Shown: positions 7,531 through 60,512 of the stretch, piece by piece
Layout of the letters: each line of letters starts with the position of its first letter
How positions within the stretch are numbered: the first letter of the stretch is position 1
DNA from: Vitis vinifera
Lineage: Eukaryota; Streptophyta; Magnoliopsida; Vitales; Vitaceae
Assembly: GCF_030704535.1 (NCBI RefSeq)
Contig: NC_081812.1
Location: 22,977,501-23,041,500, forward strand
DNA: 64,000 nucleotides
Reading direction: 5' to 3'
Notes under the pieces: generated by a model
What the model saw: only the letters and a program-made list of their open reading frames with translations
The model's database searches: none
Told to the model about the DNA's origin: nothing
Made by a program: the position numbers and the translations under genes

Positions 7531-7562
7531 AGATTCATTTACATCACTGACGTATCAATTAT

Positions 7563-14764: not shown

Positions 14765-14885
14765 ACATTCATTCACATGCCTGGATGCCGATGGAACGTG
14801 GAAGGGACGTTCTTCATCTCTGCGTATTCAACCCATCATAAACTGTGCAGAGAACCTTTACTGATCTAATAGCCATCGCTTGCCC

Positions 14886-30904: not shown

Positions 30905-32118
30905 ATCTCCCACTGGGCCACATGCATATGTAATCAAATAAATGTGCTTAACCTTATGAGCTCAAAATTTGCTATCATGTCCTTAGGGTATATCCGAACA
31001 ATCTCGTCCATTAACTATACTGACATAGGATCAAGGTGGTCTTTGTTACATCAATCGTTACTAGACCAATCAATGGTCACATATATCTGCACAACTAAAT
31101 GACATAGATCAATCATGAGTGCATAGCATGGAAATTACATGCAATGTGATCTATTCATGCCTATTTCCAACTGGTCCAACTTAACTTTATTGAGATCAAA
31201 TCTTTAGCATAATTTAACAGAGTGCAATAAAATGAATACTTTATTTCTGCAGAACACAATCCAAATGTATAGATAAAGTCTAAACATAACATAGAGCAAT
31301 ATACAATGAATAATACAAACTCCCACTAAATTTGGATATCCTCAAATGAGACAACACCCATATGAGCAATGTGCTCATGAAAGACCTTGGGTGGTAATCC
31401 CTTTGTAAGCGGATCCGCTATCATGGAGTTTGTTCCAATATGCTCTATGGATATCTGTCCACTCTGTACTTTTTCTTTTACAACAAGGAACTTGATATCA
31501 ATGTATTTTGATTTTGTAGAACTCCTGTTGTTATTGGAATATAAAACTGCTGATTTATTGTCACAAAATATCTTCAGTGGTCTTTCAATACCATCTAGAA
31601 CACGCAGCCCAGTGACAAAATTTCGTAGCCATATTCCTTGATTGGATGCCTCATAACATGCTACAAACTCTGCTTCCATGGTGGATGAAGTTACGAGTGT
31701 CTGTTTGGCAAACCTCCATGAAATTGCTCCACCAGCCAACAGATAAATATAGCCTGATGTGGATCTTCTGCTGTCTTGGCATCCAGCAAAGTCGGAGTCG
31801 GAATACCCAATCAACTCTAACTGATCCAATCTCCTATATGTAAGCATGTACTCTTTTGTTCTCTGTAAATATCTCATAACCCTCTTGGCTGCTCTCCAAT
31901 GATCCATTCCAGGGTTACTTAGATATCTGCCTAACATGCCAACAATGTACGCAATATCCGGACGTGTACATACCTGAGCATACATTAGACTCCCCACAGC
32001 CGAAGCGTAAGGAATCTTCTGCATTTCTTGACTTTCTAAACTATTTTTAGGGCATTGATTAAGACTGAATTTGTCTCCTTTAGCGATAGGGGTATCACCT
32101 GGTTTGCTATTTTGCATG

Positions 32119-34116
32119 CCATATGATTACTACCAAAAAGTGCTATTTTGTAGACCTAATTATAATGGTTTTAAGCACCTTTGAGTAGTAATCATATTCA
32201 TTTAACCCAATTAATTCATTAAGGTCCTTAGTAATTGGTTTTAACCATTTTGTGGCAAGTTTACATGTTTTTATCAGCTTATGAATCAATTCAAGCATGC
32301 CAAATGATGGAGGAGCTACTTGGACAAGTTATGGAAAAGCTTTTGGAAGCTCAAATTCATGAAGAAACCAAGCTTTGGAGCTCCATAGCCCTTTGCCAAA
32401 GTCGTTCAAAGTATGCAAGGAGAGAAGCAAGGAGAGAGGAAAAACAGAGTGAAGAAAACAGAGGAAAGCTTGATGCAGTCTTCTTGTGCACTTTTGGAGC
32501 ACTTCCCGAAGTCCATTTTGTACATTCTATATACCATTTCAAAGCTCAGGAAGTCAAGAATCCAATGCTTCAAACGGTGCACGATTCGGAGTTGAAACGA
32601 AGAAGTTACAGCCACTTCAAGTCAATCACTCTAAAGTGTTGCGAAATCAGCCTTTTGTTGCGAGAATTTCACAGCCTTTTTGCACAGTGCTTTGGATTTC
32701 CCTTGAAGTTTCACGCCGCGATGGAAGCCAAACACCACAAGATGAAAGCCAACTTCGCAGCGGTGCGGAACCAGCTTGTTGATGCGAAAATATTTCGCAG
32801 CCCTCTTGAGTGTCTGCGAAATCTCGCAGACACCATTTTCTCTTGCGAAATGGTTCCTGGAGCTTCCCAATATTTGCGACCGACACTTTTGAATATTTTT
32901 CTTCAGATATTTTTGTATAAATTTCCATTTTCTCCTTGTATTCAACCACTCATGTAATTCCGTAGCTAGGAAGTATCCAAGGAAGGGTAAATTACCTTCC
33001 TATATAAACTCCCTTGCATCCACTGTAATCATATATGTAATATCAATCAATATATAGAATATACAGAGCCTTGCTCTGTTTTTCCTTCTCTTTCATTTTT
33101 CATTTCTTTTTATTTCTAGCCAACCAAACTTTGAGGATTTTTCCTCAGAGGATGAGAGGCTAAGCTTTTTGTCTCTTGGAGTGAGGAAAGTCGGGTAATT
33201 TTCCACATGCATAATTTGGAAGTTTTGTTGTTTTAGTTTTTAATGAAGAGAAAGTGTGACCCGTTAATGGTTTTTATCTTTTTAGTTAACTTAAAACGCC
33301 TTTAAATCACCTGGGCCAACACTTGGTAAGGCAAGTGATCTCCGTCCATGGAGATGCACTAGTTTACCCCTTGCGAGCCTTTGGGAGGTGACTTGAAGGT
33401 AGGATTTTCTAGAATAGCCAACACTTGGTAAGCTTTTGGACTCCAAGGAGACATCCATTAGTTATCTCTTGCGAGCTTTTGACGGGTAATCCAAGGTTAA
33501 AGATCACCTTGAATGGCAAATGCTAGGTGAGAGGCACGAGCCATTGCAAGATGCATCAGTGAGAGGGATTTAGTGTTTGAACCCATTAATGGGAAGCATC
33601 TATACAACACCGGTTAGAGAATTAACTATATGTTAATTCTCTAATGCGAGGAAAAGAAACAAGTGACCGGAACTCCCTTTTTGTATGAGGAACCTGAGCC
33701 TAGTGATCTGAACTCCAAGAAACACTTTTCTTTATAAGTAAAATCAGTTACTATTTTTTATTAGTTTAAAACCGAACTTTTTCCATTTAAACAAGTTTAT
33801 GTTTTCTTTTAAAGCTAACCTTGAAATGAAAAGGCACCAATTCATCTTTGAATTAATATCAATTGTGAAGTGAAAACCCATCCCAGTGAACGATCCTAGA
33901 GCCACTATGCTATAGTAGCTTTGTCTTTGCTACCCTAGTATATGGTGTAATAGGTTATAAATTTTGTTGATTACTCCCTCAATCAAGGAGCACCAGCTGG
34001 ACACGAATCAGCTGAGACACCAATTGGGCACGAATCAAATGGCGCCATTGCCGGGGATCGAACCCCGAATCAGATAGTGCCATTGCCACTTCCGCTGCTA
34101 GGGACGAATCACCATA
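32119..34116 (+). mobile_element. Nested long-LTR (Gypsy-type) remnant inside the copia element
   Basis: The insert 32124-34111 begins TG, ends CA and is flanked by a CCATA target duplication (32119-32123 and 34112-34116). Most of it looks like one LTR of about 1.9 kb (32124-34037), with a TATATAAA box near 33001 and a transcript-like region after it. Two bases later comes TGGCGCCATTGCCGGGG (34040-34056), the primer site style of Athila/Tat-Ogre Gypsy elements. Its continuation (GGGATCGAACCCC) is the complement of a tRNA T-arm. About 55 bases then lead to the right edge. So it is a single LTR plus a scrap of internal DNA, with no protein genes. It is younger than the copia insertion. Confidence 0.85.
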
Positions 34117-37100
34117 CCTTTGGAGGACTTTATCAATATAGGTCCTTTGTGACAATCCTAAAATACCCCTAGAACGATCTCGGTGTATCTGGATTCCTAA
34201 GACAAAGGAGGCATCACCAAGATCTTTCATCTCAAAATGTTTTGATAAAAATCTCTTGGTGTCGTGCAATATGCTAATATCATTTGTGACTAGTAATATG
34301 TCATCGACATATAAAACCAGGAAAATATACTTACTCCCACTGAATTTGTGATACACACATTCATCCATAAGATTTGCCTCAAAACCATATGAGACAATAA
34401 TTTGATGAAACTTGAAGTACCACTGACGAGAAGCTTGCTTGAGCCCATAAATGGATTTAGTTAATTTACAAACCATATTCTTTGAGTCTTCAGATACAAA
34501 ATTTTCTGGTTGTACCATATAAATTGTTTCATCAATGTCACCATTGAGAAACGCTGTTTTAACATCCATTTGATGTAACTCAAGATCATAATGTGCAACT
34601 AGTGCCATGATTATCCTGAAAGAGTCCTTCGTAGAAACTGGAGAGAAGGTCTCTTTGAAGTCAATTCCTTCTTTTTGAGTAAAGCCTTTAGCTACAAGAC
34701 GTGTTTTATATCTTTCTACATTACCATTTGAATCCCGCTTGGTTTTAAATATCCATTTACAACCAATGGGCTTCGTACCAACTGGTAATGGGACAAGTTC
34801 CCAAACTTTATTGTCTTGCATAGATTTGTACTCTTCATTCATGGCTTCAATCCATTTCTGAGAGTTGGAACTTTTCATGGCTTGCTGGAAGTTGATTGGA
34901 TCATCTTCCATCATTCCACTTTCTACCTCACGTTCCTGGAGATATACGATATAATCGTCCGAAATTGCATCTCTCTAGTGGATCTCCTTAATGACATATT
35001 TTCTTGAGGTTGTTGAGTTTGTTCTTCAGGAGCAATGTCCTCATTTGCAATTAAGGGTTGAACAATATTGTCTGTTGGTTGAGGATCCAAATTTACTTCT
35101 TGATCAATGATAGGTAGTGAAACCTGTACATTATCAAAAGCAATAGTAGATCCATCTTCCTCCTCAAAGACAATATTCCTAGCCTGATTTCTCCCCCCAA
35201 ACTCAACATCCTCAAAAAATGTTGCAGTTCCCGTCTTAAAAATTGACCTAATAGCAGGATCATAAAATTTAAAACCCCTTGATCGCTCTGCATAGCCAAT
35301 AAAGTAGCTGCTAACTGTTTTAGAGTCCAATTTCTTTTCATGAGGCTTATAAGGTCTCGCTTCAGCTGGACATCCCCAAATATGAAAATGCTTTAAACTG
35401 GGCTTTCGACCCGTCCAAAGCTCATAAGGCGTTTTAGCAGCCGCTTTAGTTGGCACCCGATTTAGGATATAAGCTGTCATTTTGAGTGCTTCACCCCAGA
35501 GTTTTTCGGGTAAAGTAGAATGACTAATCATACTCCTTACCATGTCCTTAAGGGTTCGGTTTCGTCTTTCTGCTACACCATTCATGCTAGGTGATCCTGG
35601 CATGGTGTATTGAGGGACGATCCCACATTCCTCTAGGTATTTAGCAAATGGTCCTGGATGTTGTTCACCTGATCCGTCATATCTACCATAGTATTCACCA
35701 CCACGGTCAGATCTGACGCTCTTTATTCTTTTGTTGAGTTGTAACTCAACTTCTGCTTTAAATGTTTTGAACACATCCAATGATTGTGATTTCTCATGTA
35801 TAAGAAATAGGTAGCCATATCTTGAGTAGTCGTCTATGAATGTTATAAAGTACTGTTGACCATTCCAAGATGCCGTAGGGTATGGTCCACAGATATCTGT
35901 ATGAATTAATTCTAAGACGTCTGTAGCTCTATTGGCACCTAATTTCTTTGTTTTGGTCTGTTTTCCTTTAATACACTCAACACAAATATCAAAATCTGAA
36001 AATTCAAGTGAATCCAAAATCCCATCGGACACAAGTCGCTCAACTCTAGATTTAGAGATATGACCTAGGCGTTTGTGCCACAATGAGGTCGAATTATCTT
36101 TATTCAATTTACGTTTTGTACCTCGTGATTCCACATGCAAGGTTTCATTATAGGACGGAATAGTTTCCAACAAATATAGATTATCATAAACATTAAGTAA
36201 ACCGGTTCCTACAGCATTTGAATTAATAGATAATGTAAATTTATTGTTTCCGAATGAACAACAATAACCTGATTTGTCCAAAACAGAAACTGAAATTAAA
36301 TTCCGTCTGAAAGACGGTACAATAAAAGTATCTATTAAATCCAAAAAATAACCAGATTTCAATAATAATCTAAAGTGCCCTATTGCCTCTACTTCTACCG
36401 ACTGACCGTCTCCGACATAGATGCATCTTTCAGCATCACTTGGTTTTCGGTAACTCAGGCAACCCTGCATAGAAACACAAATGTGAGTAGTAGCACCAGA
36501 ATCTAACCACCATGTGTTTCTAAATACTGAAGCTAAATTAACTTCAGAACAGACCAAAGTAAGAAACATAGCTTTCTTAACACGCCAAGCAGCATACTTG
36601 GTACATTCCTTCTTAGTATGTCCAGGCTTATTACAGAAGAAACATGTTACCTCAACTTTCTGTTTCTTTTGTTCTGGACCATTAGAAGCAGCAACCTTAT
36701 TATCCTTATTCTTTCGTTTGCCCTTATCCTTAGAAGTGCTAGCCAGATGAGCACTTTCGGTCTTGTCTTGCTTCAATCTCTCTTCCTCTTGCACACAGAA
36801 TGAAATGAGCTCATTAAGAGTCCATTTATCCTTTTGACAGTTATAACTGACCTTGAATTGATTAAATTGTGCAAGAAGAGAGATGAGAACCAAATGCACG
36901 AGTAAATCATCAGATAACTCAAGTTTCAAAGCCTTAAGTTTTGAAGCAAGATGAGACATCTCCATGATGTACTCCCGAACATTACCCTTGCCTTTATACT
37001 TCATTGAAATCAAGCTTGCTAAAAGCGTGCTCGTTTCAGCCTTATCGTTTTTGGCAAAACGTTTCTAAATTTCCGCAAGGAAGTCACTGGCATTAGTAAC

Positions 37101-37858
37101 CTCATCGGTTACCGCACCCCTGAAAGCTTCTGGAATGCCGCGCTTCATGATCATAAGACTTAGCCTATTTGAACGTTCCCACTTACCCCAATAAACCTCA
37201 TCCTCTTGAGTACTTTGCTCATTGAGTTCATCAGGTTTGGGCATTCTCAAGGCCAAGTCTATATCCATGCAACCTAAGAGAATCATCATATTCTCTTTCC
37301 AGTCCTTAAAATTAGTCCCATTTAACATAGGGACATTATTGATGTTGGCAGATATAGAAGTAGTTGATATAAAAGCTGAATCGAGAACAAAATAAAATGA
37401 ATCAAATAAACCATCATGCTCACATAAAATAAGCAATTAAACACATAATCTTTAAATTTAAAAGCAAATTATGACATTTCAAGATACCTAGCACAACATT
37501 AATATCAAGTCTTTGGACAGTAATATTAACTGTAAGTGGTACTCTTGTTGTAGTGATCAAACATTGATGATAAGTTATGTCAAATAATAAATCTATCTTT
37601 GGATTGATTTATTATTCACATTAAGTTACCTTTATAATCATCACATATTTATCACCACAAGTATGTATGCAATTTGACCAAATATTAACTTTCCTTTGGG
37701 CCAGTCAATACCCGCATGAATCACATACACACAAATATCTAACACCCCGAACAGACTAATCTACACGGAAGATGTCACTTTGGTGATTTTCCGCTTTAAT
37801 TAGCCTATTTAAAATGCTAGATCAATAACTTAAATATTAATATCATAAAATGCTATTA

Positions 37859-39532: not shown

Positions 39533-40932
39533 CTAATTACTCCCTCCCTTCATGTACACCTTGCACAATACCCAATCATCCAACTGCAAAAAATCGAGAC
39601 TTGAGATTTGATATGGCATGTTGGATGAAAAAAATCAAGTTCTTGATATAGTATAAGTATGATTTCTTTTAATTTGATCCATAATTTAAAGACTTGAAAT
39701 TTTATTCGACCATAACATTTACGTGACAAGGAATGAGTGGCAATAAATGGTATTAAAGTCATCCAACTCGTAGGGAAACTATTTATATGAAATAAAACAT
39801 GACTTCTTTGATAAGGAATTGAAATAGAACCTCTACTCCATACCTTCGTGGGATCAGATCCATTGTTGTTATTGGGAGGAAGACTCTTTTGATTAAGCCT
39901 GTATTCATGCATCTTCCATTTGGTTTTTATTCCACTAGATTGGTTGCCATCATAGAAATCTAGGGCCTTTCGGAAGCCGATAACTTGACCATCTGAAATG
40001 ATGGCCTTGTCAACGCCAGTTGCCTTCCAGTAGCCATCCAAGCCATGGGCGACTGATCGGCTTGGCCTCGTCCCATTCGGGTACTTTCGCTCTCGCAAAG
40101 TAAAGAAATACCATTGCTTCTCTCTATGCGCATTGCGGTTGTGATTATTGTCTGATAGAAATTCACGAACGTAAAGAAGATCCATATATTAGAAAAAATA
40201 TAAATGTCAAAGATGCAAAGCATGTATAAAAGTAAAACATCCATAGGTTTTTTTTCACTAAATTATCTAGCCTTTCTTTACCCTGCAAATATTAGTGGTA
40301 TCCAAGGCTAAGAACGCTAAAAACCCTAACCCAAGAATCGAGAAGAAAAAGAAACGGTGTTTGCAACCAAAGAAACAGCAGAAAAAGTCATTTGTCAGAT
40401 TCTTTGTTTTTTATAAAGAAAAAACCATGAGGAAAAGAAACGATCAAGTCAGCTTCCAAAGCTATTTTTGTTTTGAAACTGGGTGCCTGAAAAGAAAAAG
40501 AAAAAAACATACAACAAGAAAATAATGAACCAAGAAAACAAATCGCTTACCGACGAGGACGTCAGGACGGTAGTCATAGAGAACAACGGTGCGAATTCGG
40601 TTGATGGGCAATGGCTCGTTGTTCACTTTCCTCAACAAGTAATCCTTAATCAGCTGTTCATCGGTGGGAAGAAATCTGTACCCTGGTGGACAGCTTCTGA
40701 AATACTCATCCGCCCAGGCCACTTGTTCTTCTTCGATCTCTTTAACACCTTGCTGGACGGGTTGGCGTCGTTGCTCAACCTGGAATTGATCGTTCTCCAT
40801 CCATGCCTCCCCCGAAAGATCCGGGAGAAACGAGAAAATCTGCCCGTAGTTGAGCCCATCTTCATTAGCCGGAAAAGGTTGCAGCCGGTCAGGGAGACGA
40901 CCTTGGCTATTGTTGTCTCCGTTCCCCTCCAT
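39533..40932 (-). CDS. NAC-domain transcription factor, copy A, 3 exons
   Basis: Exons 40932-40551, 40151-39844 and 39583-39533 join in phase to 246 residues. NAC proteins are plant-specific nuclear DNA-binding factors. A 80-residue N-terminal extension with an acidic stretch (EIEEEQ) precedes the NAC domain (about 82-240): subdomain [21 protein letters not shown], then [11 protein letters not shown] with [20 protein letters not shown] and [10 protein letters not shown], and E with KMHEYRL and DWVLCKVY. The protein ends almost directly after subdomain E, so the usual long C-terminal activation region is absent. The terminal TAG (39533-39535) looks like a gained stop, because the frame stays open for 30 codons beyond it. 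The ATG at 40932 is preferred over 41061 because a TATAAAATA box lies between them at 40991-40999. The NAC subgroup is uncertain. Confidence 0.9.
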
Positions 40933-40990
40933 TGCCGTGGAATCGAGATAGAGAAAAGTTGGTGGTAGGAGGATTGAGAGATAGACGTTG

Positions 40991-40999
40991 TATTTTATA
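40991..40999 (-). promoter_or_regulatory. TATA box of NAC copy A
   Basis: TATAAAATA on the minus strand, about 60 bases upstream of the ATG at 40932. The same box occurs before copy B (about 46712-46720). Confidence 0.65.
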
Positions 41000-41061
41000 G
41001 GGAGAAAAACACCAACTATGACTCGTTTAAAAGTAAGAAGTAATTCTGTTTTATTGGTCAA

Positions 41062-45066: not shown

Positions 45067-46654
45067 TCATGATCCATTGCTCTTATTACTCCCTCCCTTC
45101 ATGTACACCTTGCACAATACCCAATCATCCAACTGCAAAAAAAATCGAGACTCAGATTTGGTATGGCATGTTGGATGAAAAATATCAAGTTCTTGATATG
45201 GTATAAGTATGATTTCTTTTAATTTGATCCATAATTTAAAGACTTGAAATTTTATTCGACCATAATATCTACGTGACAAGGAATGAGTGGCTATAAATGG
45301 TATTAAAGTCATCCAACTCGTGGGGAAAATATTTATATGAAATAAAACATGACTTCTTTTATAAGGAATTGAAATAGAACCTCTACTCCATACCTTCGTG
45401 GGATCAGATCCATTGCTGTTATTGGGAGGAAGACTCTTCTGATTAAGCCTGTATTCATGCATCTTCCATTTGGTTTTTATTCCACTAGATTGGTTCCCAT
45501 CATAGAAATCTAGCGCCTTTCGGAAGCCGATAACTTGACCATCTGAAATGATGGCCTTGTCAACGCTAGTTGCTTTCCAGTAGCCATCCAAGCCATGGGC
45601 GACTGATCGGCTTGGCCTCGTCCCATTCGGGTGCTTTCGCTCTCGCAAAGTAAAGAAATACCATTGCTTCTCTCTATGCGCATTGCGGTTGTGATTATTT
45701 TCTGATAGAAATTCACGAACGTAAAGAAGATCCATATATTAGAAAAAATATAAATGTCAAAGATGCAAAGCATGTATAAAAGTAAAACATCCATAGGTTT
45801 TTTTTCACTAAATTATCTAGCCTTTCTTTACCCTGCAAATATTAGTGGTATCTGTTGGGACATCATTTGTTTTACCATCTGAGCTACTAGTCCAGATGGT
45901 ACCAGGAGGGCAACGTCCTAAACCTTAAGGTCTGGACCCAAGTTCGAATCCTGGGGAGGCCACTCTGTGATGCCCCTGACTGGCACAGAGTCAAATATAC
46001 TCAAAACAAATGACATCCCAACAGTATCCAAGGCTAAGAACGTTAAAAACCCTAACCCAAGAATCCGTTTGCAACCAAAGAAACAGCATAAAAAGTCATT
46101 TGTCAGATTCTTTGTTTTTTATAAAGAAAAAACCATGAGGAAAAGAAACGATCAAGTCAGCTTCCAAAACTATTTTTGTTTTGAAACTGGGTGCCTGAAA
46201 GAAAAAGAAAAAAACATACAACAAGAAAATAATGAACCAAGAAAACAAATCGCTTACCGACGAGGACGTCAGGACGGTAGTCATAGAGAACAACGGTGCG
46301 AATTCGGTTGATGGGCAATGGCTCGTTGTTCACTTTCCTCAACAAGTAATCCTTAATCAGCTGTTCATCGGTGGGAAGAAATCTGTACCCTGGTGGACAG
46401 CTTCTGAAATACTCATCCGCCCAGGCCACTTGTTCTTCTTCGATCTCTTTAACACCTTGCTGGACGGGTTGGCGTCGTTGCTCAACCTGGAATTGATCGT
46501 TCTCCATCCATGCCTCCTCCGAAAGATCCGGGAGATCTAGAAAGGAGCTATACAACAAAATCTGCTCGTAGTTGAGCCCATCTTCATTAGCCGGAAAAGG
46601 TTGCAGCCGGTCAGGGAGACGACCTTGGCTATTGTTGTCTCCGTTCCCCTCCAT
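45067..46654 (-). CDS. NAC-domain transcription factor, copy B, 3 exons
   Basis: Exons 46654-46258, 45701-45394 and 45132-45067 join in phase to 256 residues. The protein is nearly identical to copy A, with the same NAC subdomains and splice sites. It differs by a five-residue expansion (EQILLYSSFLDLPDLS against [11 protein letters not shown]), a few substitutions (HPNGT for YPNGT, KATSVDK for KATGVDK, EN for DN at the exon 2 start) and another C-terminus. Here the stop of copy A is a lysine codon, but an extra base near 45076 shifts the frame, so the protein ends GGSNKSNGS. Like copy A it lacks a long C-terminal activation region. The G-to-S change lies in the highly conserved GYWKATG motif, which might affect DNA binding. 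Intron 1 contains a 171-base inserted element. Confidence 0.88.
45848..46028. mobile_element. 171-base foldback insertion with an internal tRNA-like arm, in NAC copy B intron 1
   Basis: Copy A reads AGTGGTATCCAAGG without interruption. Copy B has 171 extra bases (45853-46023) flanked by a GTATC duplication (45848-45852, 46024-46028). The ends are inverted repeats of about 21 bases (TGTTGGGACATCATTTGTTT against TGTTGGGATGTCATTTGTTT). Inside are a hairpin (ACCATCTG ... CAGATGGT) and a tRNA T-arm-like segment, CCCAAGTTCGAATCCTGGGG (45938-45957). TG...CA ends with a 5-base target duplication would fit a solo LTR of a very small (TRIM-like) element; the long inverted ends would fit a MITE. I cannot decide which. 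Confidence 0.85.
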
Positions 46655-46708
46655 TGCCGTGGAATCGAAATAGAGAAAAGTTGGTGGTAGGGGGATTGAG
46701 AGATACAC

Positions 46709-49043
46709 GTTGTATTTTATAGGGAGAAAAACACTCTAACTATGACTCGTTGTTTGAAAGTAAGAAGTAATTCTTTTTTATTGGTCAATCAATTAATTAC
46801 TCGCCAGTTGAATTATGATTCTTTAATATCCTGTCAAATTAACAATTAAACGAACCACAATCCTTTAATCAAAGGATGTTTACAATATGTCAAATAACTC
46901 GTCTTATTACTTATCTTATCCTATCAATAATTAAATATATATAAATATATTATATTGTAGGATATCCATTGAACTAAAATTAGTCTAGTCCTAATTAGTT
47001 GGATACAAAGTGGATATATATCTATGTTTGATGGGTGAAAATAAAATGATAAGGAGAGTTAATATTATTTAATAGTGATAATAAAAATCCTACTAAAAGT
47101 GAAATTTAGAGTGCAACCGATAATGTTTCTACTTAAGTGTTTTTAATGAAAGTGTTTCTCTAAAAGTGTTGGGAAGATAATCACATATAACGTGTTTTTT
47201 CATAAACATTATAAATTTTTTTTTATATACTTTTAAAAGTGTTTCCTAAAATTTATCAAATACCTATTTTTAAAAAAAGAAAAAACAATTTTTAGATTAA
47301 AAACGCTTCATAAAATCATTGTTAAATGGACTTTTAGTTTTCATATTGATTAATTTTTTATTTATATTTTTATCTAAATAAATAATTCAAATATACTAAT
47401 GAATATTAAGAAAATTAATTTTCAATTTCTACTTTCTGATCCACGTTCAATGGAATATAATTTTGTTAATTAATGAACTATTTCAAGTGGACTTATGGGT
47501 TTGTGAAAGGTATAAAAAATAATATAAAAAACATTAGAACCGAATATTTATATAAGGTATCTCCATATTTGGTATAAAAAAGAATAAAATATCCCCCTAT
47601 TTAAAATTATTTGAAGATATTCCCACAATTTATATTTAATAGCATATAAATTATTTTAAAAATTTATAAATACTGCATTATATTGATTAATAATATACAT
47701 ATCAAGTCATATTATATATTAAATATACCAATAAATTTTATATATAGGATATTACAAAAACCATTTCCTCTATTGCTTATTTTAAATTTCAACTAAGTTC
47801 ATAAGCTATATTTGATTGGTTGGATATAACATAATAAGATAAGATATGTATATTATAATATATCACATCCCATTTGATAGGATATGGATATGTTAATTGA
47901 TTGGATAGGATAAGATAAAATATGTATATATTATTTGATAGGATATGAATATCTTAAAATATGATATTTATGGATATATATATATCCTATGAACATAATA
48001 TTTTAAGATAGCATATTTAATTAGATGTATTATATTATATCATATTTATATTTTATTTATGAAATAAATAAAAATAATAGGAAATGTATATTATTTTTAA
48101 ATGTTTAAAATAAAAATAACATCACATTCAAACATTTTTTATTTTAAAAAATGAAATTTTGTTATGTTTGACAATATCTATGATTAAAATATTTGAACTT
48201 TACAAATAATTTTTTTATTATGTTATTTAATATATAAAAATAATTTTTATATATCATATATTAACATTATTTTATAAATTTTTTATTATAAATTAAAAAT
48301 AATATTTAAAATTTTTCTTTTTTAATCATAAATTTAATTTATAATCAAATAAATTATTTTATAAAATGAGTATATTAAAAAATAATAAATTGATAAAATA
48401 AATAAATATTTGATATTTGATTCTTATTTCTCTTGTAAAAAAATTTTATAACATAATTAATATAAATAAAATAAAGGAGGATGAATAAGAAAAATAAAAT
48501 TATGGTGCATATTTGTTCTACAATATTTTTCATAAAACAATTAAAAAAAGAATTAATGAGATAAAATAATTTATAACTTTTAAGATTTTTATCTCGTATC
48601 TCTCGTATAATTTAATAGTCTTATAAGATGTCAAATAAATTATCACAATTATCTATCTTATCCTATTATCAATCCGATATTTATCGATATGTTATAATGT
48701 AGGATTTCCAATAAACCAAAAATTAGTCTTAATCCAAATTGGTTGGATAGAAATATGATACATATCTTTGTGTTTGTTTGATAGGTGAGATTAAAAATAA
48801 AAATAGGATGAGAATGAAAAATTAACACTATTTTGAAGAGATAATTAACCCTGATAGAAGTGAAACTTAGTTTCTATACTAATTAATTTTATTTATATTC
48901 TCCTTTTTAAATAAATAATTCAAATATATTTAAAAAATGCAAATAAAATTGATTTTTCAATTTCAACTTTCTAGAATATAATTTTTTGATTAATGTACAT
49001 ATTCTAAAAGATTATTTTCAATGGTTTATGGGTTTGTGAAGGA
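46709..49043. other. AT-rich upstream region of NAC copy B
   Basis: Counterpart of 41000-43380 in copy A: promoter-proximal DNA followed by ATAGGATATGA-type clusters and dispersed AT-rich blocks. No gene is seen. Confidence 0.5.
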
Positions 49044-49542
49044 TAAAAATTAGGGAGAATTATGTTTTGGGGGTAGATGGGCCCCCAAATTAACAAAAGG
49101 TCCATGTAACTTTTCAAATTGAGCCCAAGACCCAATGAAAATATGGAAATTGAGTTGAAGGATATCATCCTTCAGTATTTCCAAAAATGCCCTTTGTTGA
49201 TTTTGAGAAAAAAAATTAATATTTTTGAAAAATACTTTTATTTAATTTAATATTTTTTAAAAATAAATTTATTTAATTTAATATTTTTTAAAAATAAATT
49301 TATTTAATTTAATATTTTAAAAAATATTTAATTTAATATTTTTTTAAATACTTTAATTTAATTTAATATTTTTGAAAAAAAAATTATTTAACTTAATTTT
49401 ATAAAATATTTTATATGTGTTCTTAAAGGGTATATTTGTCCGTTACTATTTCATATCCTTCAACTCAATTTGAAGAGTTATATGGACCTTTTATTAATTT
49501 GGGGACTCATCTACCCCAAAAGATAATTCTCCCTAAAAATTA
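49044..49542. mobile_element. Mutator-type MITE, 481 bases, 9-base target duplication
   Basis: The element 49053-49533 has inverted ends of about 60 bases starting GGGAGAATTAT(G/C)TTTTGGGG and a perfect 9-base target duplication, TAAAAATTA (49044-49052 and 49534-49542). Nine-base duplications with long inverted ends mark Mutator-like elements. It has no coding capacity and is absent from NAC copy A, so it inserted after the duplication. Its ends resemble those of the 7.8 kb element at 50731-58533. Confidence 0.92.
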
Positions 49543-50730
49543 AGGAATATTTAATACAATGAATCTCAATGTTTGATATAAAAGAATAAAATATTCCTCT
49601 TATTTAATATCATTAAAGATATTTCCAGAGTCTATATTTAATAACATATAAATTATTATATATTTATTAATAATATTCATGAATAAAATATGTAAAATTT
49701 ATTAATATTGTATTATATTCCAAAATAATATACTTTTCAAACCATATTATATATTAAATATGCTATGGAATTTTGTATATAGTCTACGTATTAAAAAAAA
49801 AACTATCATCTCAATTATTTATTTTAAATTTCAATAATTCCATATAAGAAAAAATGATACATCAAAGTGCTATTTAAATACATATTTAATTTTAAAAATA
49901 ATTTATGAATTTTTATTTTAAAAATTATGTTCCTATATAGCCACTTTTACTATATAGTGAAATATTGTTACCAAAAATTTAAAATAAAAGGAAACATTTT
50001 GCTCCTGAAAATCAACCAATATAAATAAATAAATAAAAATGTATGACTAAAAAATCAATTGATATATTAAAGATCAATTTGTGCAAAATTATTAACCAAA
50101 TGCAATCTTGCTTCTCTGCACTTGAAATTTAATTCTAAAATTGAACTCTACAGTCATTGTATACCTTTTAAATAAACCCATAACGTAAGTTCTAAAGTTG
50201 TGTATGTGCATTTATCTTATTGTTTTATAAAAGGAAATATCCGAATAAAAAAATATAATTTAATAAACTTGTTTTCTAAGTTGGAATATATTATAAAAAA
50301 ATATTTTAAAATACCTTAAATTATTTTGAAACGCAACCTATTTTAAAAATAAATTCCAAAAAGATTATTTTTAAGTTAAAAATTGTTTAAAAATGTCTTA
50401 AATTATTTTGAAAGACAACATATTTTAAAAATAAATTATTAAATAATTATTTTTAAGAAAAAATAAACGTGTTTTTTAAGTTAGAAAAGTGTTTTATATT
50501 CTATAAAAAAACAAAACCCTTTTAAAAAATAGTTTTTAAAATGGACCTAAAATTTCTATAAAGTCTCTTAATAAGACCTAATCAATTTCTCTTAATAAAT
50601 TTCAAATTAATTAAATATCATATTTTTAAAATTATACACATGTGCATAGCATGTGACCTGCCTGCTTCGGTAAGCGGTAACAAGCTTGGATCGTGATTAC
50701 GGACTGTCCTTTGGAACATGATAAAACGAA

Positions 50731-50795
50731 GGGAGAATTGTGTTTTGGGCCCAGTTGGGCCCAAAAATTAACAAATGGTCCATATATCTAACAAA
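50731..50795. repeat. Left terminal inverted repeat of the 7.8 kb element
   Basis: Begins GGGAGAATTGTGTTTTGGGC and pairs with the reverse complement of 58470-58533. It holds the self-complementary GGGCCCAGTTGGGCCC core. Confidence 0.88.
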
Positions 50796-50879
50796 ATTAA
50801 GCCCACCACCCAAGTAAAGTCTCAATATTGATAAGAAGGATATCTCATTTATAATATTCCGAAAATGCCCTTGGCTGGG

Positions 50880-51140
50880 GATTTAAAAAAAAAACCTGAA
50901 ATCCACGTTGGATTTCCCTTTGTTTTCCCCAAATTGGAGTCGTTTTCACATTCCCGGCTTCGTCCCCCTCTTCCGCCCAAAGAATGCCCTAATCCTTAGT
51001 CCCAATCTCGTGATCTCTCAAGCTCGTGTTTCCCAGCCTTCTGATTGTTGGTGTAGACAGTCTCGTTTTCCATCTGTATCGATCCATTGGTTGCTCAGAA
51101 AACCAAACCAAGACCAACAAATTTGCCCTCTCTAGCAAAG
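50880..51140 (+). other. GC-richer block next to the left end of the element
   Basis: A 75-codon frame at 50908-51135 lies in sequence with more balanced composition than the rest of the element. It starts just inside the terminal repeat, where Mutator-like elements often carry captured host gene pieces. I do not recognise the protein. It could equally be the element's own leader. Confidence 0.35.
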
Positions 51141-52200
51141 CCATCTTTATGATCACAGATAAACCTGCTTGCTCAAGTGTTTAATATGAATCTGTATCCC
51201 TCCTTCATTATTGCTACAAACATGATGCAGAAGAATCCAACAGGATGGAAATGACCAAGTTGCTTAAGCTGGACAAACAGTTAGCTTGGATTTGTAGTCC
51301 CTATTCTATATGAATTTGTTTTGTTTTGTTTTGTTTTATTACAGTTTAAGAGACAACTATTTGGTTCCTAGTATTTTCAAGTAGAGTATTGCTATTTAAG
51401 CGAATTGGACTCATTGGTTTGCTTCTTTCAACCTAACACATGTTATGAGGGATCCTAATTTTGTGAAAAATTACATCATGGGTCATTAGGTCATCAGATA
51501 ACTAAACAAGCAAAAACAGTTTTCCAATAAAGTATTTTTCTCTTAAGTGGTCATGTGAGTTTGTAAGTAGTGTGAATGGCCAAGATTAGAGGTGAAGCTT
51601 TGTGTTGTGAGGAAGTTGGTCTAATGGGATTTTAAAAAAAGAAATAGAAACAGACTACTCATTGTATAGAAAACTAATGTAACAGTACCAAAAAAGAGGC
51701 TGAAGTATAACAATTATCCTTCAAAGAGGGATATGACAACATAAACAGTACAACACAAAGGAACGAAAAAAACACAACAGAAACTAACAAAGCTATGCAA
51801 CTCAAGATGAGAAAAAAGTCCTAAAAAAGGGCATTAAAAGTGAGGGCCCAAAATTACCACATTTGAATTTTTGGGTTGCAGAGATAGAGGTTACTAATCT
51901 GTATGGGTCTTGGTTTCTCTTTGATTTCGGTTTTAAATGGGAGCTGAGCTAGTTTTAGCTGAAAGTGGGAAAGTCCTAGAAGGTGAGTTGTTTGTTAGGT
52001 TAATCAGCCTTCGAGTTTATTTATGGTTCAATGAATTCTCCAGAGAAGTGGGTGATCGGTGTTTGGTTGCAAAATCAATGAATTCATTTATGGGTTCAAT
52101 GAAGGCATACTCAAGAGAAGCTGTTTTTATTATTATTATTATTAATATTATTATTATTTTTAATGATTCTCATATTAAGGGGCCCAAGGGCAATTTTTTT

Positions 52201-52325
52201 AACTATTTGTTTCCAAAATCAAAACAATAAGTATGGGAAAAAAAAATGTGGGTGCTAAACAATAACTATTTGTTTCCAAAATCAAAACATTAAGTATGTG
52301 AAAAAAATTATGTGGGTGCTAAAAA
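52201..52325. repeat. Two-unit tandem repeat of about 63 bases
   Basis: AACTATTTGTTTCCAAAATC...ATGTGGGTGCTAAA occurs twice in a row (from 52201 and from 52264) with a few changes. Confidence 0.85.
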
Positions 52326-52403
52326 ATTTTGTATGAAGTTAAAGTACAACCTCCATCTTTCAACTGATCCATCTGATCGGCTGTTACAGGCGAAGGTGTG
52401 TGT

Positions 52404-52488
52404 GACCGGTCGTCCATATAGGTAACCGGTCGACCGGTTACACTTTCCCGGTCGCTTACCGGTCGAGTACCGGTCGTGGACCGGTTGA
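52404..52488. repeat. Cluster of seven CCGGT motifs
   Basis: Seven CCGGT occurrences in 85 bases, several inside ACCGGT palindromes and one back-to-back as ACCGGTCGACCGGT, in otherwise AT-rich DNA. Confidence 0.8.
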
Positions 52489-53370
52489 GGTGGCCCACTC
52501 ATTATCTCTCACATAGTTGCTTGCATCTTGGAGAGTCAACATTGTATGACTGTGGTTTTGCATTATATGGGGTTAAATTATGAACTAGAAATCATGCATA
52601 TTGAAATGACATCGCTTTTTAAGTTTTCAATATGATTTGCCTTGGATCCATGTCCGAAGGGCCCGACACAGGGCAGGTGAAGGGGATAATACAAGGCACC
52701 ATTCGAAAGTTATCACTACCCTCACATAAAGGCTACGGGTTACTTCAATTATGCAACCGTATATGGAAGGGGTCCTTCCAATTATATCCAGTTATAGTAT
52801 GGTTATATAATGCATTCGGATAAAATTTCAAGATTATAAATACAGTAACTAATAGATCAACATGTCCATTATGTCAAGACTTAAGTAATGGTAGTAATTC
52901 AAAAAACATTATGAAATATGTATATCAATTGATATTTTGTTGTTGTTTATATTTAATTGAAAACTCCTAACACAAGTATGATCATAACATGTTAATTCAG
53001 TTTTGTTCCTTGTAGTCTCCACATTCGCTTTCTTCAGCTGTAGCAACCATCAACTCATCAAAGTTCTCGGTCGTGCGAACCAAAAATTCAATCTGAGAGC
53101 GAACAAAAAAAAAGCGTAAAATCAGTCTCGCATCCTCCAAGGTGCCTTGAAACAGTAGGAATTAATGACTCATAATAAATTAATATGATATCATGTCACA
53201 ACTTGGATGTTTTCTTCCCCTTTTTTATGCACACATACAACACTTGCAGAAATCAAGGCATTTAGAAGATACTATGTCACTCGAAATTAGTTTGTCATGG
53301 TAGGCAACATTATGTGACATCGAAAGTAAGGAGGATGAATATAGGAAGAAGGGAGGTTTGAAAGAATATT

Positions 53371-55860
53371 GAAAAAAGAAATGAACAAAGAATTTTGCGA
53401 AAATCGTTTGAAATCCTTCAAGTTAGGTAGCCTTGTACACCCTTGTACAGTTAGCACATTGGCCTTGTACACATAGTGTAAATGCCTTGTACAGTTGGAG
53501 AAATCCGACATAGCTACAGCTGAATGAGTGTAAATGGGCGGGATAGCCACTCGCCGATGTCATGGGTCAATGAAAAGGGGGAAAATGAAACCCAATTTAG
53601 GTTCCCATTCATCATACGTGTGCTAGCACATTTCAATGAATGTGTACGAAGGGAAATGAGGAGAGAGTACAAGGCATGTCCCCTTTTGAAAAAAGAAATG
53701 AGCAAAGAATTTTTCAAAAATCGTTTGAAATCCTTCAAGTTAGATAGCCTTGTACACCCTTGTACAGTTAGCACATTGGCCTTGTACATTTAGTGTAAAT
53801 GCCTTGTACAGTTGGACAAATCCATAATAGGGACGACCAAACAAGTGCATATGGGTGGGAAAACAATGCTTCCACTCTTATGGATAAGAGAAAATGATGA
53901 AAAAGTTAAGCCTCGTTTCGCTTCATATGCATCATTAGTAGGGGAGCTAATAGAATGAATTAACATGGTAGCCATCACATAAAATGCGTGCAATGAGGCA
54001 CCATTCAAGCAATATGTGTGAGGAATGTCCCCAACGATTGGAAAAAGTAAATGAGTAAGTTCTTCAAAATCACTTGAAAACCCTTAAGATACACGCCCTT
54101 GTACACCCTTGTACAGTTAGCACATTGGCCTTGTACACTTAGTGTAAATGCCTTGTACAGTTGGACAAATCCATAATAGGGACGATCAAACAAGTGCATA
54201 TGGGTGGGAAAACAATGCTTCTACTCTCATGGATAAGGGAAAAGGATGAAAAAGTTAAGCCTCGTTTCGCTTCATATGCATCATTAGTAGGGGAGCTAAT
54301 AGAATGAATTAACATGGTAGTCATCACATAAAATACGTGCAATGAGGCACCATTCAAGCAATATGTGTGAGGAATGTCCCCAACGATTGGAAAAAGTAAA
54401 TGAGTAAGTTCTTCAAAATCACTTGAAAACCCTTAAGATACACGCCCTTGTACACCCTTGTACAGTTAGCACATTGGCCTTGTACACTTAGTGTAAATGC
54501 CTTGTACAGTTGCAGGAAATTGACCTAGGTACACTTTAATGAGTGCATATGGGCCGATTAACCATTTCCCAATGTCATGGCTCAGTGAAAAGGGCGAAAA
54601 TGAAACTCAATTTAGTTTCCTATTCATCATAAGTGCACTAACTAGTCCCCACAGCTCACCTTCTGCACCATACCCATTTATTCTCTAGAATATAAACCTA
54701 ACAACCAGATTATAAAGTGAGGAATTTTCAAACAGCTGAAATGCCAATTTTTAGGAGATTTTTTTCGACAGATTAACTGGAAGTTTCTTTCATTTACTTA
54801 GCTTGTGCTTCATTCGTATGAGGCAAGATGGATATGATCAAAGCCTCATTTATACCCCACCCTGCACCCTAAAACACGTTGTTATTAAGTTCAAAAATTT
54901 TTAAGAACACCCCAACGCCAGATCAAAACAGACGTTTTTCCTCAAACCTTGTAAACAAACATCCACCACATCATCAAAGGAACCAACATGAAATCAAAAT
55001 CTCAAAAAATTTAATCACACCCACCCTCATTTTGATTTGGGAATGATGATGGTCACATACATGCGAAGGCTTTTCTGAGTTGCTCACAATCCTCGGCTAC
55101 ACGATTGGGGGACATTCATAGTTGGCTTCGTCTTTGACCATGGTGTTTACGGAGGGAGAGAAACGGGCAGGAGAGTGGTGACCTTTTTTGCCATTATTTG
55201 AGATTTTTCAGTCAGCATGACATGGAATTTCAAGTTTAACCACTTTAATTTACAACCAGCTGACTTGGAACTAATGAAGGACATATTGGTCAGTTAATAT
55301 CTCATAGCCTTCCTATTAATTTTGTTAGATATATGGACCATTTGTTAATTTTTGGGCCCAGCTGGGCCCAAAACACAATTCCCCTTTTATTCAAAACCAT
55401 TTGAAATCTTCAACATATATAACATTGTACACACTTGTACAATTAGCACATTTGCATTGTACACTTTGTGTAAATGTCTTACACAATGGCAAAAATTTGA
55501 CATACCTAAAACTAAAAGTGTGCATATGGGTGAGCTACCATGTTCCAATGTGATGCCTAAGGAAAAAGGGGGAAGTGAAACCCAATATAGGTTCTTATTC
55601 ATCATTATTGTGGTTGGTCATCCAATCAACATGTATGAAGTAATAAAATGGAATGGGATGAGTGCGTGATCAAGGAATGTGTGTGAGGAAATGTTCCTCA
55701 TCCTTTCAAAATGGAAATGATTTTAAAACAATTGCAAATACTTCAACATAGGTACCTTTGTACACCCTTGTACATTAAGCACACGTACCTTGTACACTTA
55801 GTGTAAATGTCTTGTACACAGACAGAAAATCCATATAACCACTATTGAATGTCTGCTCAT
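53371..55860. repeat. Satellite-like array with CTTGTACA-rich cores, interrupted once
   Basis: Six related units of about 310-350 bases have cores at 53431-53497, 53748-53815, 54097-54164, 54446-54512, 55423-55489 and 55756-55822. The cores carry up to four CTTGTACA motifs in fixed spacing: CCTTGTACACCCTTGTACAG, then GGCCTTGTACAC, then GCCTTGTACAG. Units 3 and 4 are nearly identical; units 5 and 6 are the most diverged. Between units 4 and 5 the array is broken by about 0.7 kb ending in a sibling element's right end. The short frames in the track of this region are translations of the repeat. Confidence 0.88.
54650..55384. mobile_element. Right-end fragment of a sibling Mutator-like element nested in the array
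   Basis: About 200 bases up to 55384 match the right end of the outer element (58330-58533), including GGGCCCAGCTGGGCCCAAAA and CACAATTCCCC. The left edge is not clear: no left inverted end and no 9-base duplication were found, and part of one satellite unit is missing across the junction. It is probably a truncated insertion, with 54650 only an estimate for the left limit. Confidence 0.65.
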
Positions 55861-55864
55861 GCAT

Positions 55865-58330
55865 AGGTTAATTATGTTTGCAATCTTTTGGTTAATAAAA
55901 TAAGGACAAACTGAAGTATCAATTTGTTCCCTATACTTTTGTAACAATACAAGCAAATTAAAAAAAAACAGCAATCTGTCCATTAATGTGAAGCTATTCG
56001 AAGTTAATTCCAACTTTCCAGCTACAATTCAGAAGAAGATTATATGTTAAGCATGACAAATTATTATTCAAACATATATTTTATTCAGTAAAAAGCATGC
56101 CTAAAGATGGGTTCCATTCAACTAGTCAACAACTTTTTAAACATCACATGTGGCACCAGGCCTAACAATTGTCTATAATTTACAAGGAAACTCTGAAGAA
56201 GACCAAAATGCTTCTAACTGTGGCTCACTTTTAGAGTAGTCACCCTTTTCTCCTCCAAGCAAATCTTCAGAGCCAAACAGGAAGACATTATTTTCTTATG
56301 TCCGCAATTCTCCTTCTCATCCTTTCTCTCCTGATCCAGTACTTTCATTTCTAAACCTGCTTCAATTTAATGCCAATGATTAGCAATTTCAAGCTTCCTG
56401 TTTATTCCCATAAACACTAAATATTTCCAATTAAAATTACATGAGATAAATGTAGATGAAATTTACACCAAACTAATTGGGCACAAATTAAATTTTTAAT
56501 TCATTTGTTGCAAGAATATACATTGATCAACGAAATAAGAATTGTTTCAGATACTAATCAAAAGAATGAGAAAGGAAAAGTTGGGTGGAGTGGGCTAAGA
56601 CAAGAAAAATCTTCAAAAAGAAAATTTAGGAATTCAAGCAGAAAGCAAAAGGTCATGAGTTTGATAAAATCAAGATAGCTAATAGAATTTTTAATAGAAT
56701 GTGAAATAGTCATGAACTTACAACTAACACAAAGAGCAAGAGAGATTTTGAGAGAGTGGATCCTAAATTAATCTCATGATATCAGTTTCTATGAGCCCCA
56801 AGCCTATAGAGCTTATAAAGCCTTATTACAAAAGTCTCCAGCCACATAGAAAGACAATAGGACCAAAAGTAGCATTAACTGCGCATGCATCATGTAACCA
56901 GGTCAAGGTATACAAAACGAAAAGGAAAAATGTAAAAAATGGAATAACCTAGAATGTTCCAGAGGAACACAACACCTTATGCATATACATCTTGCCCAGT
57001 GTTTGTGAGCCACAGAACAATAGTTACATTTGAGGCTTTTTTAGAGGTCTGGACTCATCAAATAGAACGGAGGTCTTGCATTGTCCAACTAGTGCACCAT
57101 ATGGCCCACAACCCACTAAAACTGAAGCTGATGGACTACATAGATGTTTGAGAATTTGAAAGTATATATATTGATGTATTGGAACACTTTCGAATCTCAT
57201 GACCAAAAATATATCCCAGAGTTGAGGAATTATTCAAGGTTGACTAAATCAATCCATTGAGAGACAAATTAATTTGAAGGGATGAGAAAGGAGAATGTTA
57301 TTACAATCAATATTGTATACAGGAAAAAACAATCAAGAAGACATCGATTTCTCTATTACCAACACACAACATTTGCATGTTAGGACAGATTACAAAATAA
57401 TATTTTTAGATCTTGATCAAAAATCAAAGTTAGCTTGTGGCTTCCGCACATTACTTAATGAAAAGACTAACAATATCATATGCTGCATTTATTCAATTAA
57501 TACACAATCAAGACAGATTAGGGAATCTAAAATGGAGCTTAGAGTTCATCGATTGAGATCTTATCAAACTCAACCAATCACATGAAATGATCTTGATCTT
57601 TCACAAGGAAAAAGCAAAATCACAACCATGAAAGAAAAACAAATTAACCAAAAAAATCTGCAAGTAAACAATGAACAATGAAATCACAAGCATGCCAATT
57701 GCCAACAAGCCCATTCTTCTGTAAATTCTTTTTTCTCTTTCGTACGAAACCAATAAAACATGAAAAACTCCAAAAATAAAAAGTTTGATTTCTGTTTGTG
57801 GCTCAAGAACATGAATAGAATCCAAAAAAATAAAAGATAAAAGGTGGGAATTTCTGTTAAAATTGCTCAACAACACAAAAGCCAAAGAACTGGGAATTAG
57901 CAAACTTGGTATAATCAAAAGTATACACAAAGCAGAATAGAACCTGTGAAAGGGAAAATTACTTTTGCAAATGGGTATGAACAGAATCAAGGGAAACGGA
58001 ACATAGAAGAACCCAAACAAATGGGAGTTATTAAGTAGCTGAACGACCTACATTTCAACACATCTCCCAAGTTCTCAATCAATCTGAAGAAATAACAACA
58101 ACCCACATAGATACTGCAATCAATCTTGAATCAAAGAAAAAGAAAATCAAATCCAACAACAAAAACAAACCATTAGCAAAGAAAAAGCTACCTATCAGTA
58201 GAGTTTTCACCAGAAGAAACCGTCATTGTATCACAGGTAGTTAAGAAAAATTTCCACTATTTTCTATCCAAAAATTGAATTTCAAGAGGTGGGTGTTGGA
58301 GAGAAAATCAGAGAGAAGAAGGCGATGGCG
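55865..58330. other. Right interior of the 7.8 kb element
   Basis: No transposase or other recognisable protein. Several short frames (for example 56954-57151 and the minus-strand 57601-58020) lack conserved motifs. The sequence is not obviously repeated elsewhere in the window. Confidence 0.45.
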
Positions 58331-58469
58331 GATGTGAATAAAAATAAGGGAGAATTCACTCTGGTGACATGGCATTTCAAGTTTACCAGCCGTGAAACCC
58401 ACAACCATTTGAGTTAGAAATGTAAAGGGCATTTTCGTCTGTTAACATCTGATATCCTTATCATTAATT

Positions 58470-58533
58470 AGGTCAGTTACATGGACCTTCTCTTAATTTT
58501 TGGGCCCAGCTGGGCCCAAAACACAATTCCCCC
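58470..58533. repeat. Right terminal inverted repeat of the 7.8 kb element
   Basis: Ends GGGCCCAAAACACAATTCCCCC and is followed directly by the TAAAACGAA duplication. Only 267 bases separate it from the DUF642 start codon. Confidence 0.88.
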
Positions 58534-58736
58534 TAAAACGAAGCTTCATTGGAATCAAGATTTCAAAAAAAGAGCTAATCACGCCTACCAATGACGGGTC
58601 CAAGGTGGGGTGTGGGCCTTATTTTGAAGGAAAAAGGAGACTACCACACACATCTCACGCCTAATTTTATGGCCCTTCAACATGGTTTTGTCAGCCACCT
58701 CTCTCTTTTCCTTTCATTTTCTTCCACTGAGTCTAG

Positions 58737-58743
58737 TATAAAT
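58737..58743 (+). promoter_or_regulatory. TATA box of the DUF642 gene
   Basis: TATAAAT lies 57 bases ahead of the ATG at 58800, which leaves room for a leader of about 30 bases. Confidence 0.6.
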
Positions 58744-58799: not shown

Positions 58800-60512
58800 A
58801 TGGCTCTGTTTCTCTCACTCTGCCTTGTGTTCTTCTCTATCGTCTGCAGCTCTGCTTCTGCAACTCTTCCTCCATATCTTGATGGTAAATGACCTAGTCT
58901 GGGTGTTTGGTTTTCTGGGTTTGGGTTTGGGTGTCTGGTTCTGATGTTTGATGATGTCTGTCTATGCAGGGCTTCTTCCAAATGGGGACTTTGAGAAAGG
59001 GCCCAAGGCGTCAAATCTGAAGAAGACAGTGATAAAAGGGAAGCACTCACTCCCGGACTGGGAGATCAAGGGCTTGGTGGAGTATGTTTCAGGTGGGCCG
59101 CAGCCAGGTGGGTTCTTCCTGGCTGTTCCTCGTGGGGTACATGCAGTGAAGCTTGGGAATGAGGCTTCGATCTCTCAGAATGTTCGAGTGAGGCCTGGCT
59201 TCATCTACTCGCTCACCTTTGGGGCCACTAGGACTTGTGCCCAAGACGAGGTGTTGAGGGTGTCCATCCCTGGTCAATCGGCAGATCTCCCTATCCAGAC
59301 TCTGTATAGTACTGATGGTGGAGACACCTATGCTTGGGCTTTCAATGCCACCACAGAAGTTGTCAATGTCACATTCCACAACCCTGGGATTCAAGAGGAT
59401 CGCACCTGTGGACCCCTGTTGGATGCTATTGCAATTAAGCAGATGCCACCTCTCAAGCTTACCAGAGGTTTGTTTTAGAGTGTTGTGTTTCTAATATTTG
59501 AAAATTTTTAGTTCAGAATATAGTAAAAATGTTTTTTTAAAAGCATTTTTCAGACATGAAACACCATAGAAAAAATATTATAAATAATTTTTTAATATTT
59601 TACAAGTGTTTTAAAATTTTATTACATATCTAATATTTTTAAAAAATATATTTTTTTATGCAAAATAATAAAATAATTTCAATTTATAAATCTAGTCTTC
59701 TAATTTCTTTTTTTTTTTAAATCCCAAAAAAATCCATTTTGATAAAGATAAAAATAACAACATATCCTTTAAAACTTATATGTAAATAATCAAAATATTA
59801 AAAAAACTTATATTAAAGATGAATTATTTTTCAATTTTATACATGTTGAGATTAGATGAGAGATGTTGATTTATAAATTTGACATTATTTCATCCTATTA
59901 ATTAATTAATTCTGATTAAAAGCACTTTTAAACAGGCTTTTCACTTGCTAATCAATAATTTTAGAGTATTGATTCTCTTGTTGCTATGCAGGTAGTCTAG
60001 CTAAAAATGGAGGATATGAAACTGGCCCACACGTGTTCAAGAACTTCTCAACTGGGGTCCTCCTCCTTCCCAAGCAACAAGACCTGATCTCACCACTCCC
60101 TGGATGGATCATTGAGTCCCTCAAACCAGTGAAATACATAGATTCAAAGCACTTCTCAGTCCCCACAGGACTTGCTGCAATTGAGCTGATTGGAGGGAGA
60201 GAAAGTGCCATTGCCCAAATCATAAGGACAGTGCCCAACAAATCCTACAACCTCACATTTACTATTGGAGATGCCAAGAATGGCTGCCATGGATCCATGA
60301 CGGTCGAGGCTTTTGCAGCTAAGGAAACTGTCAAAGTCCCCCATGCATCTCAAGGCAAGGGTGAGTTCAAGGCTGCAAGTCTCAAATTCAAAGCACTTTC
60401 AGCTAGAACAAGGATAACATTCTACAGTGCCTATTACCATACCAAGCTTCATGACTTTGGTCATATGTGTGGCCCTGTTTTGGATGATGTTAGGGTCTAT
60501 CCCGTCTCTTAA
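58800..60512 (+). CDS. DUF642 cell-wall protein, 3 exons
   Basis: Exons 58800-58884, 58970-59467 and 59992-60512 join in phase to 367 residues, the normal length for this plant family. A signal peptide (MALFLSLCLVFFSIVCSSASA) sends it to the cell wall. Two galactose-binding-like DUF642 domains follow. The first begins LLPNGDFEKGPK near residue 31 and ends at CGPLLDAIAIKQMPP. The second begins SLAKNGGYETGPHVF near residue 196 and ends at CGPVLDDVRVYPVS. Cysteine pairs (RTCAQDE, DRTCGPL, NGCHGS, HMCGPV) are typical. Family members (BIIDXI, TEEBE, DGR1/DGR2) interact with pectin methylesterase and cellulose and affect growth and seed germination. The nearest Arabidopsis match was not determined, but proximity to PXC3 suggests the At2g41800/At2g41810 group. 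The 7.8 kb transposon ends just upstream and probably forms its distal promoter. Confidence 0.96.

Follow-up and report, generated by a model that had tools for sequence, protein, structure and literature searches.

We analyzed a 64-kb window of the Vitis vinifera genome (64,000 nucleotides; contig NC_081812.1, positions 22,977,501 to 23,041,500 of the forward strand), in which a DUF642 gene lies downstream of a putative 7.8-kb Mutator-like element (MULE). All positions below are those of the window. The DUF642 gene, which lies outside the element on the plus strand, extends from its ATG at 58800 to 60509, where the end is that of the last open frame and not of a mapped transcript, and PF04862 is matched there twice, in two reading frames (E = 2.3e-64 and 1.1e-13). 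The ATG is 267 bp from the last base of the element. A TATAAA sequence at 58737-58742 lies 204 bp downstream of the element, so that this box and the DUF642 coding sequence are uninterrupted. Further, the insertion shifts the former upstream DNA of DUF642 by 7.8 kb. Because the insertion is 204 bp from a TATA-like box and both DUF642 domain matches lie in open frames, an effect on the expression of DUF642 is plausible. A scan of the DUF642 upstream region for bacterial promoters and terminators yielded none, although such a scan is unsuited to plants.

The element proper occupies positions 50731-58533 (7,803 bp) between two copies of TAAAACGAA, at 50722-50730 and 58534-58542, which form the left and right target-site duplications (TSDs). 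These are the only copies on the plus strand of the window, and the minus strand carries one, at 11550. Given the base composition, two fixed places would agree at 9 of 9 bases by chance with a probability of approximately 1e-5. Immediately inside the TSDs are a left terminal inverted repeat (TIR), here called L (50731-50800, plus strand), and a right end, R (58365-58533, minus strand), which consists of the right TIR (58464-58533) and subterminal sequence common to the internal end M described below. An ungapped comparison of L with R shows complementarity at 61 of 71 positions. When the left end was slid along the whole minus strand to provide a background, the mean score was 19.3 (sd 3.8) and the best score outside the MULE family was 35 of 71. 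L and R delimit a single unit that was transposed and is flanked by a 9-bp TSD.

A TSD of 9 bp is within the range of 9-11 bp that is general for the MULE superfamily according to PMC4334395. The L-R TIR, 71 bp at 61/71, is below the 100-500 bp stated for TIR-MULEs in PMC3903597. The termini of the element are of the GGGGGAATTGTGTTTTGGGCCC type. Each TIR also contains a 24-bp palindrome, TTTTGGGCCCAGCTGGGCCCAAAA, at 50743-50766 in L, 55350-55373 in M and 58498-58521 in R; it is perfect in M and R and has one change in L.

A search for a transposase detected no Pfam family at E values up to 1 in any of the six frames of the element, using translations with X at stops, a reading by which strongly decayed coding sequence could be missed. 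As a control, DUF642 was found in two of three frames of the neighbouring stretch, introns included, indicating that exon-sized coding pieces are detectable in this way. The longest stop-to-stop frame in the six frames was 148 codons, and it matched no PDB sequence at E values up to 1. Autonomous MULEs are defined by a transposase coding region, intact or spliced, and the Pfam scans revealed none. Thus, the element is classified as Mutator-like, non-autonomous and transposase-less on the strength of its inverted ends, its 9-bp TSD and the lack of Pfam matches. The original prediction, made from the letters of the DNA alone, had proposed a Mutator-like element with inverted ends, a perfect 9-base duplication, no visible transposase and no frame above about 150 codons, whose right end was 267 bases from the DUF642 ATG. 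Each of these points was confirmed, and PF04862 backs the identity of the gene. A spliced MURA-type transposase inside the element, which the original prediction had named as evidence that would count against it, was not detected in the six-frame Pfam search at E values up to 1.

Searches for tRNA genes and Rfam families (gathering threshold) over the 64-kb window detected none. A 20-base core of the TIR had no exact match in viral and bacterial/archaeal contig collections, a result that is uninformative on its copy number in the host. At 52396-52500, repeated words resembling ACCGGTCG form a CpG-rich patch that stands out from the surrounding sequence of the element. The pyrimidine fraction in 50-bp windows inside L, M and R was up to 0.68, 0.68 and 0.80, respectively. 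These uncontrolled values are suggestive of CT-rich leaders inward of each end, which could hint at captured 5' ends, and they were left unused.

Inverted-repeat and BLAST comparisons revealed a third end, M, within the element (55218-55385, minus strand; TIR 55316-55385). M terminates at approximately position 55385, is oriented like R, and lacks the terminal G of the other ends. The TIR of M is identical to that of L at 68 of 71 positions and to that of R at 62 of 72. M and R aligned over 169 columns at 78%, approximately 97 of which are beyond the TIR (ungapped, 108 bp at 83%), whereas the likeness of M to L covers 72 bp only and L has no alignment in the region beyond the TIR that is common to M and R. 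This difference indicates that M is a second right end and that the family has distinct left and right ends; M is an additional right-type end inside the element. When TIR sites were inspected by eye, two grouped L with M, and position 4 and the centre of the palindrome grouped M with R.

There was no recognizable TSD for M. By hand count, only 4 of the 9 bases that flank M on its outer side agree with the outer flank of L. An independent insertion of L-M at the present locus with its own TSD was rejected because the flanks match at 4/9. In a scan of 50701-58560, the outer 9 bases of M recurred exactly once, at 57488, beside no visible end. A separate 739-bp element starting at 54647 was likewise rejected: no left end was seen by reading the sequence, nor was one present among the inverted repeats listed (25 of 36).

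A repeat array lies on both sides of M. Units 1-4 lie at 53368-54646 with a spacing of 317-349 bp, unit 4 being cut at approximately 54646, and the array continues with units 5 and 6 at 55387-55934, beginning within a few bases of the outer edge of M. Three local array alignments begin at 55387, two bases outside the terminus of M, and two more begin at 55390 and 55393. The outer junction of M therefore lies in array DNA, as expected for the end of an inserted transposon. No array was found to the left of L. Units 1-4 are 63-90% alike among themselves, and units 2 and 3 resemble the products of a recent 349-bp duplication. Unit 5 is 66-69% and unit 6 58-60% similar to units 1-4, and units 5 and 6 are 60% similar to each other. 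Further, the phases of units 4 and 5 overlap by approximately 230 bp.

A small member of the same MULE family, 481 bp long and AT-rich, is present at 49053-49533, 1.2 kb upstream of the large element, between perfect (9/9) copies of a different TSD, TAAAAATTA, at 49044-49052 and 49534-49542. Its own two ends match at 64 of 71 positions, a closer likeness than either has to L, M or R. The left TSD, TIR and subterminal sequence of the large element (50722-50894) aligned with the left end of this relative over 176 columns at 74%. Part of the interior of the relative (49216-49406) is an AT array with a period of 31 bp, and a shorter hairpin with different letters is seen by eye in place of the TTTTGGGCCCAGCTGGGCCCAAAA palindrome.

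The frequency of CpG changes near M. The observed/expected ratio (o/e) of CpG was 0.48 in 50731-55385 and 0.23 in 55386-58533 (Fisher's exact test, p = 0.0002; p = 0.004 without the CpG-rich patch, taken as 52350-52520). The two blocks of the array differed in the same direction, with o/e values of 0.47 in 53368-54646 and 0.13 in 55386-55934 (23 CpGs in 1,279 bp versus 2 in 549 bp, p = 0.03), as did 51200-54646, with the patch excluded and the first array block included, and 55935-58200 (44 versus 14 CpGs, p = 0.018). We then located the best change point in 100-bp bins by a permutation test of the full element and of trimmed versions. Depending on the trimming, it was placed at 55231, 55202 or 55171, within 215 bp of M, with a permutation p of 0.023 (0.035, 0.043 and 0.051 in a repeat run; 0.007 when the change point was fixed at M). 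The step fits two pieces of different history meeting near M, and we use it as supporting evidence only.

Taken together, these results suggest, with a probability that we put at about 50%, that this three-ended non-autonomous MULE consists of two related elements that were nested and then moved as one through L and R. The proposed inner element 1 would extend from L to M (50731-55385, 4,655 bp, CpG o/e 0.48), and the proposed remainder of the outer element 2 would extend from there to R (55386-58533, 3,148 bp, CpG o/e 0.23). L and M are assigned to the same element because they are the closest pair (68/71 versus 61/71 for L-R and 62/72 for M-R), and pairing by likeness is backed by the 481-bp relative, whose paired ends are likewise closest to each other. 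According to this model, element 1 (4.66 kb) would have inserted into the repeat array of the related element 2. A MULE transposase supplied in trans by another copy would then have acted on L of element 1 and R of element 2 as one pair, and everything between L and R would have moved to the DUF642 promoter, where a fresh TAAAACGAA duplication would have been made upstream of the gene. The left-hand TSD of element 1 would have stayed behind at the donor site, which would read array, then TTTATTCAA, then an L-type end. One such hybrid-end event would account for the common TSD, the likeness of L and M, the array at the edge of M, the missing TSD partner of M and the CpG step.

The original prediction of one large carrier is thus retained in that the element moved as one unit, as its common TSD indicates, and is modified in that it contains a third, internal end and most likely consists of two joined relatives. 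It had also named, as a finding that would refute it, two ends from distinct elements, each with a TSD of its own; a separate origin of L and R is indeed probable, but the perfect TSD is common to both. M, the 317-349-bp repeat array and the 481-bp relative were not part of that prediction.

Several observations weigh against the nested, hybrid-end origin. CpG o/e was 0.25 in the DUF642 region and 0.44 in the whole window, and because CpG varies elsewhere in the window too, the step by itself is no proof of two sources. The p values of the CpG comparisons are rough, since sites or bins were treated as independent and neighbours are dependent, and that of one trim was 0.051. The likeness of L and M may reflect gene conversion over approximately 72 bp. 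The array units do not split cleanly into two groups, as opposed to what two arrays of separate origin would suggest, and an exact copy of the outer 9 bases of M exists at 57488, which we read as chance.

Some of these points would suit a different history, in which a relative inserted into a single MULE that ran from L to R and had an array of its own. A later deletion would have taken away the left part of the inserted relative and some of the array, so that 739 bp (54647-55385) with the solo end M were left. The array lies on both sides of that segment, the left breakpoint at approximately 54646 cuts unit 4, a TSD partner for M is unnecessary if the left part was deleted, the units do not form two clean groups and the CpG change point reaches only moderate significance. 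However, L is nearer to M than to R, its supposed partner, the array blocks differ in CpG o/e (0.47 versus 0.13), the phase overlap of approximately 230 bp between units 4 and 5 is unlike that of one array merely cut, and the best CpG change point is near M and away from 54646. This history requires a deletion plus conversion of L, and we consider it rather unlikely. The extra end might instead have been acquired as captured sequence or have arisen by slippage or recombination within one element. Ferguson and Jiang (PMC3310237) list such origins for extra TIRs and observed no TSD at the internal ones, but the junction of M lies at its terminal bases in the array, as for an insertion, and random capture would be unlikely to stop there; we regard this origin as improbable. 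That L and R were paired by chance or are the products of two independent insertions could be proposed because they resemble ends of different elements. The 9/9 TSD exactly at the terminal bases and the score of 61/71, compared with a background best of 35/71 outside the family, speak against it, and the common TSD has in practice already refuted this explanation.

Elements with extra ends have been described previously. Ferguson and Jiang (2012; PMC3310237) reported 61 tomato MULEs with extra TIRs, 13 of which had a solo extra TIR, terminal or internal. They found no recognizable TSD at the internal TIR and took this as a sign against nested insertion; the possible origins that they discussed are acquisition, slippage and recombination, but also a nested insertion that has lost its TSD. 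They mentioned aberrant transposition involving one external and one internal TIR, and left the question open. The present element resembles their types 4-6 of tomato and maize, which have an outer TIR pair with a TSD and one TSD-less internal TIR and are mostly non-autonomous, as is the element described here; the maize ZmMULEdt-3 (type 4) is 10.7 kb by its listed coordinates. For these types, the paper asks for a likeness of 100 bp or more between the extra TIR and an outer one, which is the case for M and R, while the L-M likeness covers only 72 bp; the outer TSD and the lack of a recognizable TSD at the internal TIR are found in the present element as well. In contrast to the reported examples, the extra TIR here has its outer junction in a repeat array, where it can be read, and a CpG step lies nearby. 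We therefore place the element in the known class of MULEs that have one extra solo TIR in their interior; it is not a new kind of element, and its junctions can be read unusually well.

The element is also similar to Pack-MULEs in that it is non-autonomous and has inverted ends and a 9-bp TSD. Pack-MULEs carry a captured host gene fragment; in the present element, none was identified by the six-frame Pfam scans or by the PDB comparison of the 148-codon frame, each at E values up to 1. At 7.8 kb, it exceeds the sizes given in PMC6431247, where most Pack-MULEs are 1-2 kb and the set of Jiang et al. (2004) contains none over 7 kb. The pairing of complementary ends of separate elements resembles alternative transposition with hybrid ends, as outlined in the background section of PMC4334395. 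The citrus case of that paper is a chromosomal deletion that, according to its authors, does not match the hybrid-end mechanism, whereas the product proposed here is a transposed composite. Among the papers listed by our literature searches, neither a MULE in a DUF642 promoter nor a nested hybrid-end MULE composite was seen.

Besides DUF642, Pfam matches in the window include NB-ARC with LRR, LRR with kinase, and NAM (NAC), and these genes mark the host as a plant. Two NAC gene regions with a NAM domain are located on the minus strand at 39553-41061 and 45070-46735, approximately 5.5-5.7 kb apart; their translations are nearly alike by eye and they are probably a local duplication. A Copia-type retrotransposon, spread over several frames of the minus strand, spans 31329-37436 (Pfam scan of 34926-37064 only). 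A long open NBS-LRR-like gene is present at 7551-10280, beside a second one at 14865-17532 whose coding sequence extends over several frames (Pfam scan of 15748-17532 only).

We tentatively extend the proposed origin to other solo internal TIRs of MULEs, which may arise when, after a relative has nested in a MULE, the transposase pairs the left end of that relative with the right end of the surrounding MULE. If this is true, the locus upstream of DUF642 would be a fossil of hybrid-end transposition, and hybrid-end transposition would be a way for MULEs to outgrow their usual size and carry foreign sequence. The composite route would account for transposase-less MULEs above the usual 1-2 kb. 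Further, because the extra end lies in a repeat array, its outer junction is readable, and the nested, hybrid-end origin would be directly testable by a genome search.

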